Origin: Candidatus Eisenbacteria bacterium
Lineage (GTDB): Bacteria; Orphanbacterota; Orphanbacteria; Orphanbacterales; Orphanbacteraceae
Length of the DNA stretch: 56,611 nt
Assembly: GCA_016867715.1 (NCBI GenBank)
Contig: VGIW01000010.1
Location: 1 to 56,611, forward strand
Direction: 5' to 3'
The notes under the pieces were generated by a model that was not told the DNA's origin, made no database searches, and saw only the letters and a program-made list of their open reading frames with translations. The translations under genes were made by a program, and so were the position numbers. The first letter of the stretch is position 1; each line of letters starts with the position of its first letter. Below are positions 1,670 through 50,708 of this stretch, piece by piece.

Positions 1670-2404
1670 ATGAGCCCGATGCGGAATTCCTGGAACCCGT
1701 CCGACCCGACGCATCGAGACGATGCCTTCGCCAACCCGGGGGGTGCAACTCCTCCCACCGCGGTGCTCATCGATGGGAGCGCCCTCTATCTCGTTTCCCG
1801 CGCGCTCTATGAGGGGCGCTCGCTCGACTACCGGGGCTTCATTCGCCTTCTCTGTGAAGAGGTGGAGGGAGTGCGGGAGCCGGATCCGAGAGGGAAGGAG
1901 GGCCTCTGGGTGATGTGGACCTCGGCGTCTTCCCAGAACGCGGGTCAGATGCGCTTTCTCGAGTTCGCCGAGAACGACCTTCATTGGGAGGTCCGCCGTT
2001 TCGCGCCGATCGAGAGCTTCGTGGTGGAGCCGGCGGGGGTGCTCGGGTTTTCGGAGGACGGGAAGGTGGCGCCCCGGCTGGTCCGTTTCGATGCGGGGAT
2101 CGCGTTCGCGATCGGAAGGCTGGCGGACTCGTATCGGATCGCGGTGGTCTCGGATAGCTTCGCGCTCTCCGAGCCTCTCCTTCGGACGGCGCAGATCGCG
2201 CGTCGCCGCGGGGGCGGTCACCGCGCGCCCGTGCTCGCTTTTTTCGGACGGGGGCTCGACGCGCGGTGGCAGCGGGTTCTCCGCGCGGAGGGGGAAGACG
2301 GGCTTCGCTTCCTGGATTTGGATGATTTCGAGGAGGGGCTTTTCGGTTTCGGGAGAGTGGTTCGCCCCCGCCCGGCCCGAGAGGAAGACGCTCCGATCTA
2401 CTAG
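1670..2404 (+). CDS. NYN/PIN-like domain protein (244 aa)
   Basis: The ATG at 1670 is preceded by AAAGGAGA at 1655-1662. After a variable N-terminus of about 30 residues comes 'AVLIDGSALY', matching the first acidic strand of NYN (LabA/DUF88) and other PIN-fold RNases. Later 'VRFDAGIAFAIGRLADSYRIAVVSDSFAL' matches the second acidic position and the V-x-S-D-S strand that usually reads S-G-D-S-D-F. The family members known are metal-dependent RNases or RNA-binding proteins acting in the cytoplasm. Here the 'SDSFA' motif lacks the second Asp of the usual D-x-D pair, so activity is uncertain. It is a single-gene unit with its own promoter. The family call is by motif resemblance; the function is inferred. 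Confidence 0.55.
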   Translation: MSPMRNSWNPSDPTHRDDAFANPGGATPPTAVLIDGSALYLVSRALYEGRSLDYRGFIRLLCEEVEGVREPDPRGKEGLWVMWTSASSQNAGQMRFLEFAENDLHWEVRRFAPIESFVVEPAGVLGFSEDGKVAPRLVRFDAGIAFAIGRLADSYRIAVVSDSFALSEPLLRTAQIARRRGGGHRAPVLAFFGRGLDARWQRVLRAEGEDGLRFLDLDDFEEGLFGFGRVVRPRPAREEDAPIY

Positions 2405-2536
2405 ATGCGCCGGGTCCTGTGCCGCATCGTGCGGTTCCTGGGCTCAGCCCGATGCGGGACGGGGAAGGCCGATTTCCCCAACGAACCTCCAGGCCTCAGC
2501 GGTGACGGAGGCGATGACTGAAAGGAGAATGGCCCA

Positions 2537-3553
2537 GTGAACTTCCACATTCGGAATGCCGTCCTCTCTTTCGCTGTTTTTTCCCTTCTCTTCGCCTTCC
2601 CCGCCTATGCAACGACCTACACGATCAAGACCTACAGCTATCAAGGGGAGCCCCTCGCGGGGCAGCTCGTGTTCGGCCGGCTCTGCGACCGGACGCTCTC
2701 CGATACAACTGATGCGAACGGGGAGGCGACTTTGGAATGGGTCCTCACCGGGGTCCCGGAGGCCCGCTCCGAACGGGGCTCCTGGGGCGCCGTCAAGAGG
2801 CTTTTCCACGTTGGCACGCCGGCGAAGACGAGTGTCTCTCCCTCCGACTTGTTGAACGGCCAGGTTATGATTGATGGGAATAGTGTGTATTGGAATTGGC
2901 TGAGAGATTTTGGAATAAATGCAAATGACAACCAGACAGTATGCGTGATGATAACGCCCAAACAATATCGCGGCGTTAGTGATTTTGATGTTGCTCTTAT
3001 GAAAGTACTCTATGATGTTCCAGTGCTTGGAAATGACAACAAATGGCATCCTACTGCGAATTTTCCGCTGAAGGTTGATGGGTATTATGTTGCATCATTG
3101 CCTCATCGTCCCCTAAATTCAACAGAAATTGGATATATTACAAGTGCTATTGATGATATTAATGCAAGATGCGATTCTATTATTCCAGGACCAGCTCTTG
3201 CGTGGGCTCCTGGTGAGGTCAATCCTGAGGAAGATAATATTTATATCTATATTTTAAATATGAATTCATCTGATTTTAATATTATTCCAGAGACGCAGGA
3301 AATAGAAGCAGTTACGATTTACTATAAGCCCGGAAGTTTGGGAATAGGCAACTGGAGGATTTGTGCACACGAGTTGGCAAGAGCTATTTCTGGTATTAGT
3401 GGAAATTCTTCTGATTCCAGACTTGGCATATTGCAGGTTAGTCCTCAGCCTTGGACCAGTTCAGATATCTCTTACATTGCCTGGGGAAGAGATAAAACAA
3501 GGAGAACAGAAGAACTTAGAAATGATGCCCAAGCTATTGAGTTCAATCAATAA
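2537..3553 (+). CDS. Secreted protein with degenerate matrixin-like region; composition switches mid-gene
   Basis: The gene starts at GTG 2537 behind AAAGGAG (2521-2527). Residues 1-25 form a clear signal peptide. Residues 27-80 look like a small beta domain ('GEPLAGQLVFG', 'TDANGEATLEW'). At residues 82-90 is SWGAVKRLF, nearly the same as the C-terminal tail of the secreted LTD protein at 4848-6281. From about residue 110 (base 2865) the DNA changes abruptly from GC-rich to AT-rich, while the frame stays open. The second part resembles a matrixin/M10-like fold: 'PLNSTEIGYITSAIDDINA', then an 'AVTIYYK' strand and HELAR at 278-282, where metzincins have HExxH. The final zinc histidine is absent, so it is probably not an active protease. 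The gene may be a fusion created at a DNA junction. Confidence 0.6.
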   Translation: MNFHIRNAVLSFAVFSLLFAFPAYATTYTIKTYSYQGEPLAGQLVFGRLCDRTLSDTTDANGEATLEWVLTGVPEARSERGSWGAVKRLFHVGTPAKTSVSPSDLLNGQVMIDGNSVYWNWLRDFGINANDNQTVCVMITPKQYRGVSDFDVALMKVLYDVPVLGNDNKWHPTANFPLKVDGYYVASLPHRPLNSTEIGYITSAIDDINARCDSIIPGPALAWAPGEVNPEEDNIYIYILNMNSSDFNIIPETQEIEAVTIYYKPGSLGIGNWRICAHELARAISGISGNSSDSRLGILQVSPQPWTSSDISYIAWGRDKTRRTEELRNDAQAIEFNQ

Positions 3554-4260
3554 ATCAATACCTCCTTTTCTCCAAAGAACAGATAATCTTGCCCAGGAAG
3601 TGGAACTCTCAAGAATTCACAGCAGGCAATGCTCCAATTTCCGGATTCTCCTGGGGGAGAGAAATCCTCAAGACACCACCCTAAATCATTCATGAACCCA
3701 GGCTGTGCAAGTGTCTCATTGGTCTGGCAATTATGCTGTGTCTCGTTCTCAAACCCATAATCGCACAATTCCTGAACCGGTTCACAGCGTCCAAAATCTT
3801 CATTCCAAATGAAATTAATGGGACACCAAACACCACTTTCAATACAAGTAATGTCCACATCATCTTTGTTGGAAATGGTCGAAAAACGAGAATAGCATCT
3901 GCCAGGTTCGTTATCATTTTCAGAATACGCACAATCCTGTCCCACTCCCGTGAGCTTGTTGCAATTCGCATATGCCGGGAGAGGTGTTGTGGTATTGCAC
4001 GCTCTTCCGAGCACAATGGCTTTGCTCATGTCAGTAAACCACCCGCACTTCATCTCCTGATTACCGCACCAAGGTATTCCTTCCATCGGCGGCTTGATTT
4101 CTGGTCCGACGCTGGTGATGTTTAAGTAGTCAAAGTAGACTGGCTCAAGGCTTCCGAGCTGTGCTCTTCCGACCATGAGCGTGCTTTGGTTGTTTAGGAG
4201 TATTGGGTCTGGAAGTGTGGGATGATCTTGGTGCCAGGCTACGGAATCCTGCCGCCTTCC
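2865..4260. other. AT-rich island, compositionally foreign
   Basis: Between about 2865 and 4260 the sequence is far richer in A+T than anywhere else in the window. Both of its reading frames use AT-ending codons. It contains the 3' two-thirds of the gene at 2537 and a convergent cysteine-rich frame on the minus strand. The left edge falls inside a coding sequence without breaking the frame. The right edge falls inside the minus-strand frame, which loses protein-like character there. Horizontal transfer and a mis-assembled contig are both possible. No terminal inverted repeats or integrase are visible. Confidence 0.7.
3547..4176 (-). pseudogene. Cys-rich secreted-type protein, 5'-truncated at island edge
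   Basis: The minus-strand frame ends at 3547, overlapping the end of the convergent gene at 2537-3553 by 7 bp. The first ATG is at 4176, but the frame stays open upstream to a stop near 4296. Residues encoded up to about 4255 (for example 'AWHQDHPTLPDPILLNNQS') still look like real protein. This suggests the gene originally continued and was cut at the island boundary. The protein has about 18 cysteines, several in Cys-x(6-12)-Cys spacing, and many N-x-T/S sites, like cell-surface proteins of some uncultivated archaea. That resemblance is an impression only. No signal peptide remains. Confidence 0.5.
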
Positions 4261-46654: not shown

Positions 46655-47524
46655 GTGAGCGTCCTTGTTCTCGTCAACCCGCGGGCGGGGACCCGCCGCG
46701 ATCGGCTCATGATCTCGGAGCGGATCGTCTCTCTCCTCGCGCCCGAGGACGTGGCCATCGAGGTGCCCGGGAGCCGGGAGGCGCTTCGCGCGCGCGCGGA
46801 GCGGGCCGCCGCTTCGGGCGCTAGGCTCGTCGTGGCGGTCGGAGGGGACGGCACGATCCGAGAGGTCGCCTCCGCGCTTCAGGGGACCGAGACCGCGCTC
46901 GGCATCCTTCCGCTCGGGTCGGGGAACGGGCTCGCGCGAGGGCTCGGGATCGGGGTCTCGGCGAGGCGGGCGCTCCGCGTGCTGGCCGAGGGGAAGGACC
47001 GCGCGATCGACGTCGGGTACCTGAACGGCGAGCCGTTCTTCAACGTCTCCGGGATCGGCTTCGACGCGGTGGTCGGGGAAGAGTTCAACCGGGGACCGTT
47101 TCGGGGGCTTCTCCCGTACTTCGGGATCGCCGCCAGGGAGTCGCTCCAGTACCGACGGGCCGAGGTGAGCCTCCGTCTCCCCGACCGCGAGATCATCGCG
47201 CGGGTCTTCCTCGTCACCGTCGCCAACCTGAACCAGTTCGGAGCGGGGGCCATCATCGCGCCGGGCGCGGACCCCTCGGACGGGCTTCTCGATATCGTGG
47301 TCGTGCGGAAGCTCTCCGCCTTCGAGCTTCTCCTCTACGCGCCGAAGCTCTTCGACGGATCGGTCCGGGAGCTCTCGAACCTGGAGACCTTGCGGAGCGC
47401 TTCCTTCCGGATCGTCCGATCGGAGAGCGGTCCCGTGCACCTCGACGGCGAGCCGTTCCGGTTCGGGCACGTGCTCGACTACTCGATCCGGCCGCGGGCG
47501 CTTCGCGTGCGGGTCCCGGCGTGA
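46655..47524 (+). CDS. Diacylglycerol kinase-family lipid kinase
   Basis: The start is GTG 46655. The 289-residue protein has 'VLVLVNPRAGTRR' at the N-terminus, the nucleotide loop 'LVVAVGGDGTIREVASAL' (G-G-D-G-T), 'LGILPLGSGNGLARGLGI' and the C-terminal 'GPVHLDGEPFRFG' (D-G-E). These define the DAGK catalytic family (YegS, DgkB, BmrU-like). It phosphorylates diacylglycerol or a related lipid at the membrane. Confidence 0.88.
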   Translation: MSVLVLVNPRAGTRRDRLMISERIVSLLAPEDVAIEVPGSREALRARAERAAASGARLVVAVGGDGTIREVASALQGTETALGILPLGSGNGLARGLGIGVSARRALRVLAEGKDRAIDVGYLNGEPFFNVSGIGFDAVVGEEFNRGPFRGLLPYFGIAARESLQYRRAEVSLRLPDREIIARVFLVTVANLNQFGAGAIIAPGADPSDGLLDIVVVRKLSAFELLLYAPKLFDGSVRELSNLETLRSASFRIVRSESGPVHLDGEPFRFGHVLDYSIRPRALRVRVPA

Positions 47525-47609: not shown

Positions 47610-48812
47610 ATGATCATGAGGATTCCGCTCGCTCTCTCTCTTCTTCTCCTCGCGTGCGGAGCGGGAGAGGAGCGGGTCGCGACGAGAAGCGAGCCGGCCG
47701 GCGATCTCTTCGTGCACAGCCCGAGGGCGCCGCGCCTCCCGCTCGAGCGCGCGGAGCGGGGCGACCGAGCCCCCGAGCTCCCTCCCGATGCGGTCCTCTG
47801 GACGGCGCGCCTCCCGATCGGATCGGACCCGGAGAGCGGCCCCGCGATCCTCGCCGCGACCGACGCCTCGGGCCTTCCGATCGAGAGCCGCATCTGGATC
47901 GATCCCATCGGGATCGGGGATTTTCTCTCGGCCGAACCGGTTCCGCTCGAACCGGATTCGACAAGCGAGGGGTACTTCTGGACCGATGCGGCTTCGTTCG
48001 CCTTCCCGGTCGCCGGAGCTTCGGGGACGGCGGAGGGGAGCGCCTCCTTCCGTCTTCTCCTCGAGATCGGCAAAACCGGAGGGCGTGTCCGTCTCTATCC
48101 GGCCGAGACGAGGACCGGGGTCTTCCCTCGCGGCGGGACGCGTTTTCTTTTATACGACAACGATCGAAACGGGATCTATGATCATGCGGACCGGCTCGTG
48201 ATCGACGCGAACGGCGACGGGACCTTCGACGGGAACCGGAACAGCATCGAGCTCTACGCGATGGACGAGCCGTTCCTTCTCGGGGATGCGTCCTACCGCA
48301 TCGCATCGGTCGCGTGGGACGGATCCTCGGTCGTGCTGGCCCGGAGCTCCGAGGAGGCGGAGGCACGCCGCGCCCTCCTTCCCGGAGACCCCGCCCCCGA
48401 CTTCACCCTTCCGCGCACGGACGGCGAGCCGATCCGCTTCGCCGAGGCGCGCGCCGGACGGCCGACGCTTCTCTCCTACTGGGCGACGTGGTGAGGAGGA
48501 TGCGTTGAGGAGGCTCCTCAACTCGCACGACTGGCCGAACGATTCGCCTCCGAAGGGCTCGTTCTCTTCTCGGTGAGCTACGACGACTCCGCCGCGCATG
48601 TGGAACGCTTCTTCCGCGAAAAGGGCTTCTCCTATTCGGTCGTGATGGACGATCGGGAGAAGGGAGCGACGGGAAAGCCGTATCAGGTCGGGGCGATCCC
48701 GACCCTCTTCTTCATCGATCGGGAGGGGAAGATCGTCGAGAAGATCGTCGGGTACGAGCCGGCCGAGGCGGCGAAGCTCGAGGCGCGGGTCGCCGCCCTT
48801 CTGACAAGGTGA
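47610..48812 (+). CDS. TlpA-like thioredoxin-fold lipoprotein, probable selenoprotein (UGA = Sec295)
   Basis: An ordinary reading stops at TGA 48492-48494, but the same frame continues without another stop to 48812, giving 400 residues. Residues 1-17 form a lipoprotein signal with lipobox L-L-L-L-A-C. The middle has two Ca-binding-like acidic loops (D-x-D-x-N-G and D-x-N-x-D-G). From about 265 a TlpA/AhpC-type domain begins: 'LLPGDPAPDFTLPRTDGEP', then Y-W-A-T-W-(TGA)-G-G-C-V-E-E-A-P-Q-L, where the family has W-C-x-x-C. After the TGA come 'VLFSVSYDDS', 'YQVGAIPTLFFIDREGKI' (cis-Pro) and a final helix, all expected. So TGA most likely encodes selenocysteine in a U-G-G-C redox site, acting as a periplasmic thiol/selenol oxidoreductase. 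Confidence 0.85.
48492..48527 (+). promoter_or_regulatory. SECIS-like stem-loop after the in-frame TGA
   Basis: Sixteen nt after the TGA is a 5-nt loop AGGCT on a 7-bp stem, GTTGAGG (48504-48510) / CCTCAAC (48516-48522), with TGC/GCA (48501-48503 / 48525-48527) below a 2-nt bulge. Bacterial SECIS elements sit immediately 3' of UGA with a GG-containing apical loop; E. coli fdhF has AGGUCU at nearly the same distance. Confidence 0.75.
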
Positions 48813-48869: not shown

Positions 48870-50708
48870 CTATTTCTTCTTCCGCGAGGGGGCGCTCCGC
48901 GCGCGCACGGTCTCCCCGTCCGCCTCCAGGACGATCTTTTTCACCTCAAGGTTCTCGAGCAGATAGAGGGAAACGGGGCGGAGGACGAGGTCCTCGACCG
49001 TTCGGGTGAGCTGGTGCGCGCCGGTGCGCGTGCTGAACCCCCGCTCGGCGACGAGGCGGACCACCTTGGGGTCCACGACAAGCGAGACCCCGCGCCGCGC
49101 GAGGCGCTCGCGGATCGATTCGATCTCGATCTCGGCGATCGCGCGCACCGACTCGGGGGTGAGGGGGTCGAAGTAGAGGACCGCGTCGAACGCGTGGAGA
49201 AAGTCGGCGGCGAAGAAACTCTCCGTCGCCTGCTGAATCGCGCGGCGCTGCATCTCGATCGTCTTCGTGCTCTCGCTCTCGAGAAACCCGACCGTCTTCT
49301 GCTCTTCCTCCTGAAAGAGGTTGTCCGAGTTCGCGATCACCACCACCGTCGTCGCGGCGAACGAGATGTGGCGCCCCTCCTCGTCGGTGATCCTCCCTTC
49401 CTTGAGGAGCTGGAGGAGGATCGGTCCGACCTTCGGGTTCGCCTTCTCGATCCCGTCGACGAGGAAGACCGCGTTGGGCCGCCGCTCGATGAGCGCCGCG
49501 AGGACCCCCTTCACGCCGGGCGTCCCGCGCGTCCCGAGGAGCTTCTGCGCCGCGTCGTCCCCGGTGAACTGCGCCATGTCGAGGTGGAGAAGATGGTCGA
49601 GGTTCCCGTACAGCTCGATCGCGAGGCGCCGGGCGAGCTGGTTCTTTCCGACCCCTGAGGGGCCGATGAAGAGGAACGAGCCGTCCGGTCGTTCCGGGTG
49701 GGAGGAGAGCCCGACCTTCGCCACGCGGAGAACGTCCGCCACGCGGCGCACGACCTCGCACTGCCCCTTGATGCACGCAGAGAGGCTCTCCTCGAGGCGG
49801 ATGAGATAGCCCCCCGCCCGGTCGTAGAGCTTCTCCATCGGGATGCCGAGGCGGCGGCTCACGGTCTCCCCGACGACCTCCGCGTTCACCGCGCGCGGCT
49901 TTCGTCTCTCGCCCCGCGCGCGCACGACCTCGGCGGCGCACGCCTCGTCGAGGACCTCGAGCGCCTTCCCGGGGAGCACGCGCGAGCGAAGATAGTAACT
50001 CGAAAGGTCGATCGCCTTGTCCACCGCGTTCGCCGTGATCTCGATCGAGTGGAACCGCTCGAGCTTCCCGCGCACGAGGCGGAGGATCTTCCGCGCGAGG
50101 TCGGGAGAAGGTTCCGCCACCTGGATCGGGACGAGGTTCGACTCGATCCAGGGGTGCTCGAAGACCGCCCTCTGGTAGGCCCACTCCGAGATCGAGGCGA
50201 TGATCTGGAGCTGCGGCTGGCGCGAAGCGACCTCGAGGAGAGCGGAGGCGCCCCCGAACCCGCCGTCCGTTCGGCCGAGGAAGTTCTCGAGTTGGTTGAA
50301 GTAGAGGATCACGTCCTCGCGGCCCACCGCCTCCTTGATCGCGTGGAAGAGCACCCGCTCGAAATCTCCCGGGTCTTGAATGTACGGCATCACGCTCGGC
50401 AGCGTGATCTCGAGGATGTGCTTCGCGCGAAGGTTCGGCGCGACGTTGCCGTGGGCCATCAGCTCGGCGAGCCGAAGAACCATCGTCCGCTTCCCGACCC
50501 CCACCGGTCCGTGGAGGAGCACGTTGTGGTTCGAGCGTTTCTGGAGGGTCTCGAGGAGACGGGTGACCTCGGACTTCCAGGGGACAAGCGAGCTGACGCG
50601 CCGCTCGTGGGAGAGGTGGCTGAGATCGGTCGAGATGTGGGAGAGGATCGAGAGAGGCGTCTCTTCGGTCTCCGCGGCCTCCGGCGGTCCGGTTTCCGGA
50701 TCGTTCAT
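48870..50708 (-). CDS. ClpB/ClpC-like double AAA+ protein with degenerate catalytic residues
   Basis: The 612-residue protein has the ClpA/B/C layout of two AAA+ domains without the N-terminal adaptor domain. D1 (about 45-290) has Walker A 'GPVGVGKRT' (67-75), but at the Walker B position reads 'VILYFNQLE' in place of hhhhDE. The arginine-finger segment 'ALERRF' becomes 'WIESNL'. D2 (about 305-600) has Walker A 'GPSGVGKNQ' (349-357), Walker B 'VFLVDGIEKANP' (DG for DE), no G-Y-V-G pore tyrosine ('GTRGTPGVKG') and 'DFLHAFDAVL' where the finger Arg of 'FLNRID' is expected. It may bind nucleotide without efficient hydrolysis, acting as a scaffold. Target unknown. Convergent to the selenoprotein gene. 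Confidence 0.85.
   Translation of the reverse strand: MNDPETGPPEAAETEETPLSILSHISTDLSHLSHERRVSSLVPWKSEVTRLLETLQKRSNHNVLLHGPVGVGKRTMVLRLAELMAHGNVAPNLRAKHILEITLPSVMPYIQDPGDFERVLFHAIKEAVGREDVILYFNQLENFLGRTDGGFGGASALLEVASRQPQLQIIASISEWAYQRAVFEHPWIESNLVPIQVAEPSPDLARKILRLVRGKLERFHSIEITANAVDKAIDLSSYYLRSRVLPGKALEVLDEACAAEVVRARGERRKPRAVNAEVVGETVSRRLGIPMEKLYDRAGGYLIRLEESLSACIKGQCEVVRRVADVLRVAKVGLSSHPERPDGSFLFIGPSGVGKNQLARRLAIELYGNLDHLLHLDMAQFTGDDAAQKLLGTRGTPGVKGVLAALIERRPNAVFLVDGIEKANPKVGPILLQLLKEGRITDEEGRHISFAATTVVVIANSDNLFQEEEQKTVGFLESESTKTIEMQRRAIQQATESFFAADFLHAFDAVLYFDPLTPESVRAIAEIEIESIRERLARRGVSLVVDPKVVRLVAERGFSTRTGAHQLTRTVEDLVLRPVSLYLLENLEVKKIVLEADGETVRARSAPSRKKK

Follow-up and report, generated by a model that had tools for sequence, protein, structure and literature searches.

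Thioredoxin-fold selenoproteins with a UxxC active site, including TlpA-like (cd02966) and Redoxin (PF08534) proteins, are listed in PMC13188914, and the cd02966 type goes back to PMC1088965. The locus described here lies in a stretch of 56,611 nucleotides from a Candidatus Eisenbacteria bacterium, hereafter the window. The protein predicted from it is like these thiol-disulfide isomerase-like and Redoxin-family selenoproteins in its TlpA/Redoxin-like domain, in the placement of selenocysteine (Sec) as the first residue of the CxxC motif, and in a bSECIS element directly after the UGA; they are compared by listed domain and motif only, and the acidic-loop module is a feature of the window protein. 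The UxxC TlpA/Redoxin-like type of selenoprotein is already known, and the window protein is a further example. NF041054 (ResA-like WAxxUGC motif-containing protein) also has an active-site Sec in a ResA-like domain, but its model does not take the window protein (42.6 bits, where 300 are required), whose motif is WATWUGGC (UxxC) and not WAxxUGC. The ResA, DsbE and TlpA oxidoreductases agree with it in fold and in the layout of the active site (3gl3, ResA), but carry Cys instead of Sec and lack the 240-residue N-terminal module; the window protein falls below the NCBIfam cut-offs for ResA and DsbE (80.5 bits against 170 for ResA NF002854). There is a good case for regarding the window protein and its orthologues as a distinct subfamily. 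Our literature search found no paper joining Eisenbacteria and selenoproteins, and plasmid records contained distant TlpA domains only.

An in-frame TGA at the first Cys position was also seen in TlpA-type frames of other lineages, with the motifs WATWUPTC (L048, genome G038), WATWUPSC (L063, G037), WATWUPYC (L065, G054) and WAEWUGAC (L068, G022). The first two are followed by hairpins of 7-8 bp at the same spacing as in the window gene.

The gene and the domains of its product

The start codon is closely preceded by AAGGAGG, as seen on inspection of the sequence, and the only stop codons in the frame are the TGA at codon 295 and the terminal TGA at codon 401 (coordinates of all features are given in the table). 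Translation bears out the original prediction of a single in-frame TGA exactly at the first Cys of the W-C-x-x-C motif of a Redoxin/TlpA (ResA-like) domain. Past the TGA the frame stays open for another 105 codons. The original description of the frame is accurate: residues 258-390 match both Redoxin (PF08534, 4e-24) and AhpC-TSA (PF00578, 1.7e-23), and the cis-Pro segment GAIPTLFF is in place. With a thioredoxin fold, a W-[CU]-x-x-C motif and the cis-Pro, the C-terminal domain has the hallmarks of a TlpA/ResA-like oxidoreductase, and the structures closest to it are those of DsbE-like 3gl3 and ResA.

Features of the predicted selenoprotein locus in the window (positions of the whole stretch)
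Feature	Positions	Strand	Description	Evidence
Predicted selenoprotein gene	47610..48812	+	400 aa with UGA as Sec at residue 295; stop TGA 48810-48812	Translation; orthologues L021-L024 with the same in-frame TGA
Predicted Sec codon	48492..48494	+	UGA, U295 of W-A-T-W-U-G-G-C	TGA in all five Sec orthologues, TGC in the sixth (L054)
Putative signal peptide	47610..47660	+	Lipobox-like LLAC; Cys16 the presumed lipidation site	Sequence; the Cys is kept in all five Sec orthologues
N-terminal module	47658..48371	+	Beta-rich, extracytoplasmic (predicted)	AlphaFold pLDDT 86; Foldseek PDB best E 0.042; no Pfam match
Acidic loops	48156..48239	+	Two loops, DNDRNGIYDHAD and DANGDGTFDGNR; possibly Ca-binding	Invariant D/N/G columns in six orthologues; also present in Cys-type L027
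Thioredoxin-fold domain	48381..48779	+	Redoxin / TlpA-ResA-like	PF08534 4e-24; best solved relatives DsbE-like 3gl3 and ResA
bSECIS-type hairpin	48504..48522	+	GUUGAGGA-GGC-UCCUCAAC; loop 17 nt after UGA	Folding and comparison

The protein is probably a lipoprotein anchored through Cys16: the LLAC at residues 13-16 follows a hydrophobic start, and the cysteine is kept in all five Sec members, with LSGC in the Cys-encoding orthologue L054. Between the signal peptide and the redox domain lies a module of about 240 residues that is predicted to be beta-rich and returned neither a Pfam match nor a convincing PDB fold match by Foldseek. Judging from its acidic loops, there is an even chance that this module binds metal (Ca2+), while none of the five Sec members has a Pfam match to EF-hand or dockerin at E 0.5. 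The module recurs in L027, a Cys-type TlpA protein of another lineage (blastp 1e-10, hhalign 97.8%). L027 is lipoprotein-like as well and has ND-x-NG and D-x-NGDG loops ahead of its TlpA domain, but differs in having WCGPC at the active site and no hairpin (best stem 4 bp), and in belonging to a different lineage and a separate tree branch. The fusion is therefore not special to the Sec form, and the original view that an acidic-loop lipoprotein joined to a Sec-containing TlpA domain is unusual does not hold, since the module is present in Cys-type TlpA proteins of other phyla as well.

A YegS/DagK-type lipid kinase gene (46655-47524) lies directly upstream, 85 nt from the selenoprotein gene in the window, and is the immediate 5' neighbour in all five Sec genomes. 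On the other side, a gene for a ClpB/AAA_2-type ATPase with a divergent first half (48870-50708, minus strand) is convergent to the selenoprotein gene and is likewise its neighbour in G001. Elsewhere in the window, G+C content dips to 0.517 at positions 2001-4000 against about 0.68 overall, and this segment may be acquired DNA. A scan of the window by codon-position G+C for other Sec genes gave nothing convincing; its thresholds also missed the selenoprotein gene at 47610-48812, so that the scan is no evidence of absence.

Conservation of the UGA codon and a cysteine-encoding orthologue

Full-length relatives that are 90, 45, 41 and 40% identical to the window protein were found in four genomes of the same family, each with one in-frame TGA at the identical codon and the motif ATWU[G/S/P]GC. 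In the other two family members searched (G002 and G004) we found only shorter Cys-type TlpA homologues. Changes past the TGA fall mostly at third codon positions in pairwise comparison, and dN/dS after the UGA is about 0.13 in two pairs (0.026/0.21 for the window against G001, 0.061/0.45 for G003 against G006). By this measure, purifying selection acts on the part downstream of the TGA.

A scan of 84,980 species genomes yielded one more full-length orthologue, L054 of Candidatus Eisenbacteria bacterium RS_13_32 (genome G060), which is 33-36% identical over its length. L054 has TGC where the others have TGA, in the motif WASGCGGC. Finding an orthologue with Cys in place of the UGA is a standard line of evidence for a selenoprotein, and the expected alignment of Cys with residue 295 is seen both here and in distant homologues. 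The five Sec proteins group together (98/92) in a tree built from 36 domains, and L054 branches as sister to them (100/98). The genome of L054 has SelA and a tRNA-Sec; because the anticodon of the latter is UCA, we rejected the idea that UGC itself is read as Sec there.

L054 retains an 8-bp SECIS-like hairpin (L054:1484-1522), in which an A-U pair has been replaced by C-G through compensatory changes on both sides; as long a stem arises in only 0.3% of synonymous recodings of L054. The retention of this structure in a Cys-encoding gene points to a probable Sec-to-Cys conversion with the hairpin kept, which is the simplest reading. The compensatory pair is modest evidence, as the covariation amounts to one pair in one sequence and is reached by 84 of 500 shuffles. 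Switches in the Sec-to-Cys direction are thought to be rare in bacteria. They have been reported mainly for FdhA and SelD (PMC1794560, PMC13188914). Cys homologues of FdhA and of a HesB-like protein are described as carrying SECIS-like remnants (PMC1794560).

Sec decoding and the reading of UGA295

The genome that contains the window (3.51 Mb, rated 100% complete) was searched for the Sec machinery by family models, and the components that the original prediction called for are all there: a tRNA-Sec with UCA anticodon (C3:102542, 73 bits), SelA (544 bits), SelB (387 bits) and SelD (358 bits). With this complete set, decoding of UGA as Sec is very probable in this organism. Its SelD gene (L017, G000:C4:78012-78938) has an in-frame UGA near the start followed by a hairpin, and its product is probably itself a selenoprotein. 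Among the related genomes, G001-G005 have a tRNA-Sec and G002-G005 have SelA, which is split into two pieces in G002. Our searches recovered no SelA from G001 (91% complete) or G006 (82%), which both have the UGA gene, and no tRNA-Sec from G006; incomplete assemblies are the likely cause of these gaps.

The published model of the bSECIS element has a loop of 3-9 nt, a stem of 4-16 bp, a G in the first two loop positions, a spacing of 16-37 nt and an MFE of at most -7.5 (PMC13188914). The hairpin after UGA295 agrees with it in every respect, as was anticipated for a bacterial SECIS: its 8-bp stem starts 9 nt past the UGA, its G-first loop is GGC (or A-GGC-U), the spacing is 16-17 nt and the MFE is -12.3. 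All five Sec genes have an 8-bp stem, with the spacing unchanged. Synonymous recoding gives an equal stem length in 3.5e-4 of cases for the window gene and in 0 to 0.026 for the other Sec genes. Invariant residues that use one codon across the five genes make up 5 of 7 hairpin positions and 14 of 102 positions elsewhere (p=0.0016), and the hairpin codons GTT, CCT and CAA are rare in the organism (6/106, 4/74 and 2/23). At the same place, 25 Cys homologues have no such hairpin, their stems not exceeding 6 bp (median 3). The strength of the hairpin was considered as proof by itself and rejected: by a simple test 28 of the 856 TGAs in the window (3%) are followed by a stem of 8 bp or more, and the MFE is ordinary for the G+C content. 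Rfam gave nothing relevant at the hairpin; its other matches in the stretch were to miRNAs and due to chance. Since a hairpin after a TGA is weak evidence when taken alone, the case for the selenoprotein rests on comparative conservation.

We weighed three other explanations of the in-frame TGA. The first is a pseudogene or sequencing error, in which a Cys codon had mutated or been misread; in its favour, TGA is one substitution from TGC or TGT, and the Cys orthologue has TGC. Five separate assemblies nevertheless have TGA at this codon, with identities as low as 40%, and purifying selection continues past it. Together these are a strong argument against both decay and misreading, and we regard such an origin as extremely improbable; a read error in the window would leave the TGA of the four separately assembled relatives unexplained. 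Termination at UGA295 would give a truncated 294-residue module, the downstream domain being made separately or not at all. TGA does serve as an ordinary stop in this genome, the selenoprotein gene itself ending in one. The split would, however, cut through the catalytic motif and leave a downstream part that has neither the catalytic residue nor the first half of the fold and yet is conserved, while L054 is one continuous frame; we therefore give termination very little credence. A general reassignment or readthrough of UGA to Trp, Gly or another amino acid is about equally implausible. The amino acid at UGA295 is a prediction from sequence, but UGA acts as a stop at the end of the same gene, the Sec machinery is complete, and the UGA coincides with the catalytic Cys position and is followed by a bSECIS hairpin. 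Reading of UGA295 as Sec, which would give a Sec-containing TlpA/ResA-like protein, is in our judgement very probable. The original prediction of a selenoprotein with a U-G-G-C site thus gains support from the machinery, the conserved UGA, the Cys orthologue and the hairpin.

Proposed function and significance

According to the mechanism we propose, SelB carrying Sec-tRNA-Sec(UCA) would bind the mRNA hairpin just past UGA295, so that the codon is decoded as Sec. The resulting U-G-G-C active site in the ResA/TlpA-like domain would have Sec as its catalytic nucleophile. The protein would be exported, probably lipid-anchored, and would work on the outer face of the membrane. There the Sec295 selenolate would attack and Cys298 resolve, reducing disulfides or related oxidised thiols, and a DsbD-type membrane reductase would recharge the enzyme. 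The genome encodes two DsbD_TM-type membrane proteins as candidate electron donors to the selenoprotein. The acidic-loop module may fold round a metal (Ca2+) and position the redox domain or its substrate. By analogy with the DsbE and ResA families the protein would be an exported thiol-disulfide oxidoreductase, and we consider a redox role as a ResA/TlpA-like reductase likely. The frame, the machinery, the conserved UGA, the hairpin and the Sec/Cys pair are seen in the sequence itself; Sec insertion, export, lipidation, the direction of electron flow and the substrate are deduced from it.

More tentatively, and with somewhat less than even confidence, we suggest that these proteins may form a separate family in which a lipid-anchored metal-loop module is joined to a Sec-TlpA domain. 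Such a family would have contained Sec ancestrally and be linked to a YegS-type lipid kinase, with one Sec-decoding lineage having gone back to Cys while its SECIS hairpin was kept by compensatory change.

Standard gene calling would stop at residue 294 and the catalytic domain would be lost from the annotation. With this gene, a poorly sampled phylum gains a conserved selenoprotein, and Sec would be used there not only in SelD but also in a redox protein predicted to be exported. With its preserved SECIS hairpin, L054 clearly records an exchange between Sec and Cys in a thiol oxidoreductase.
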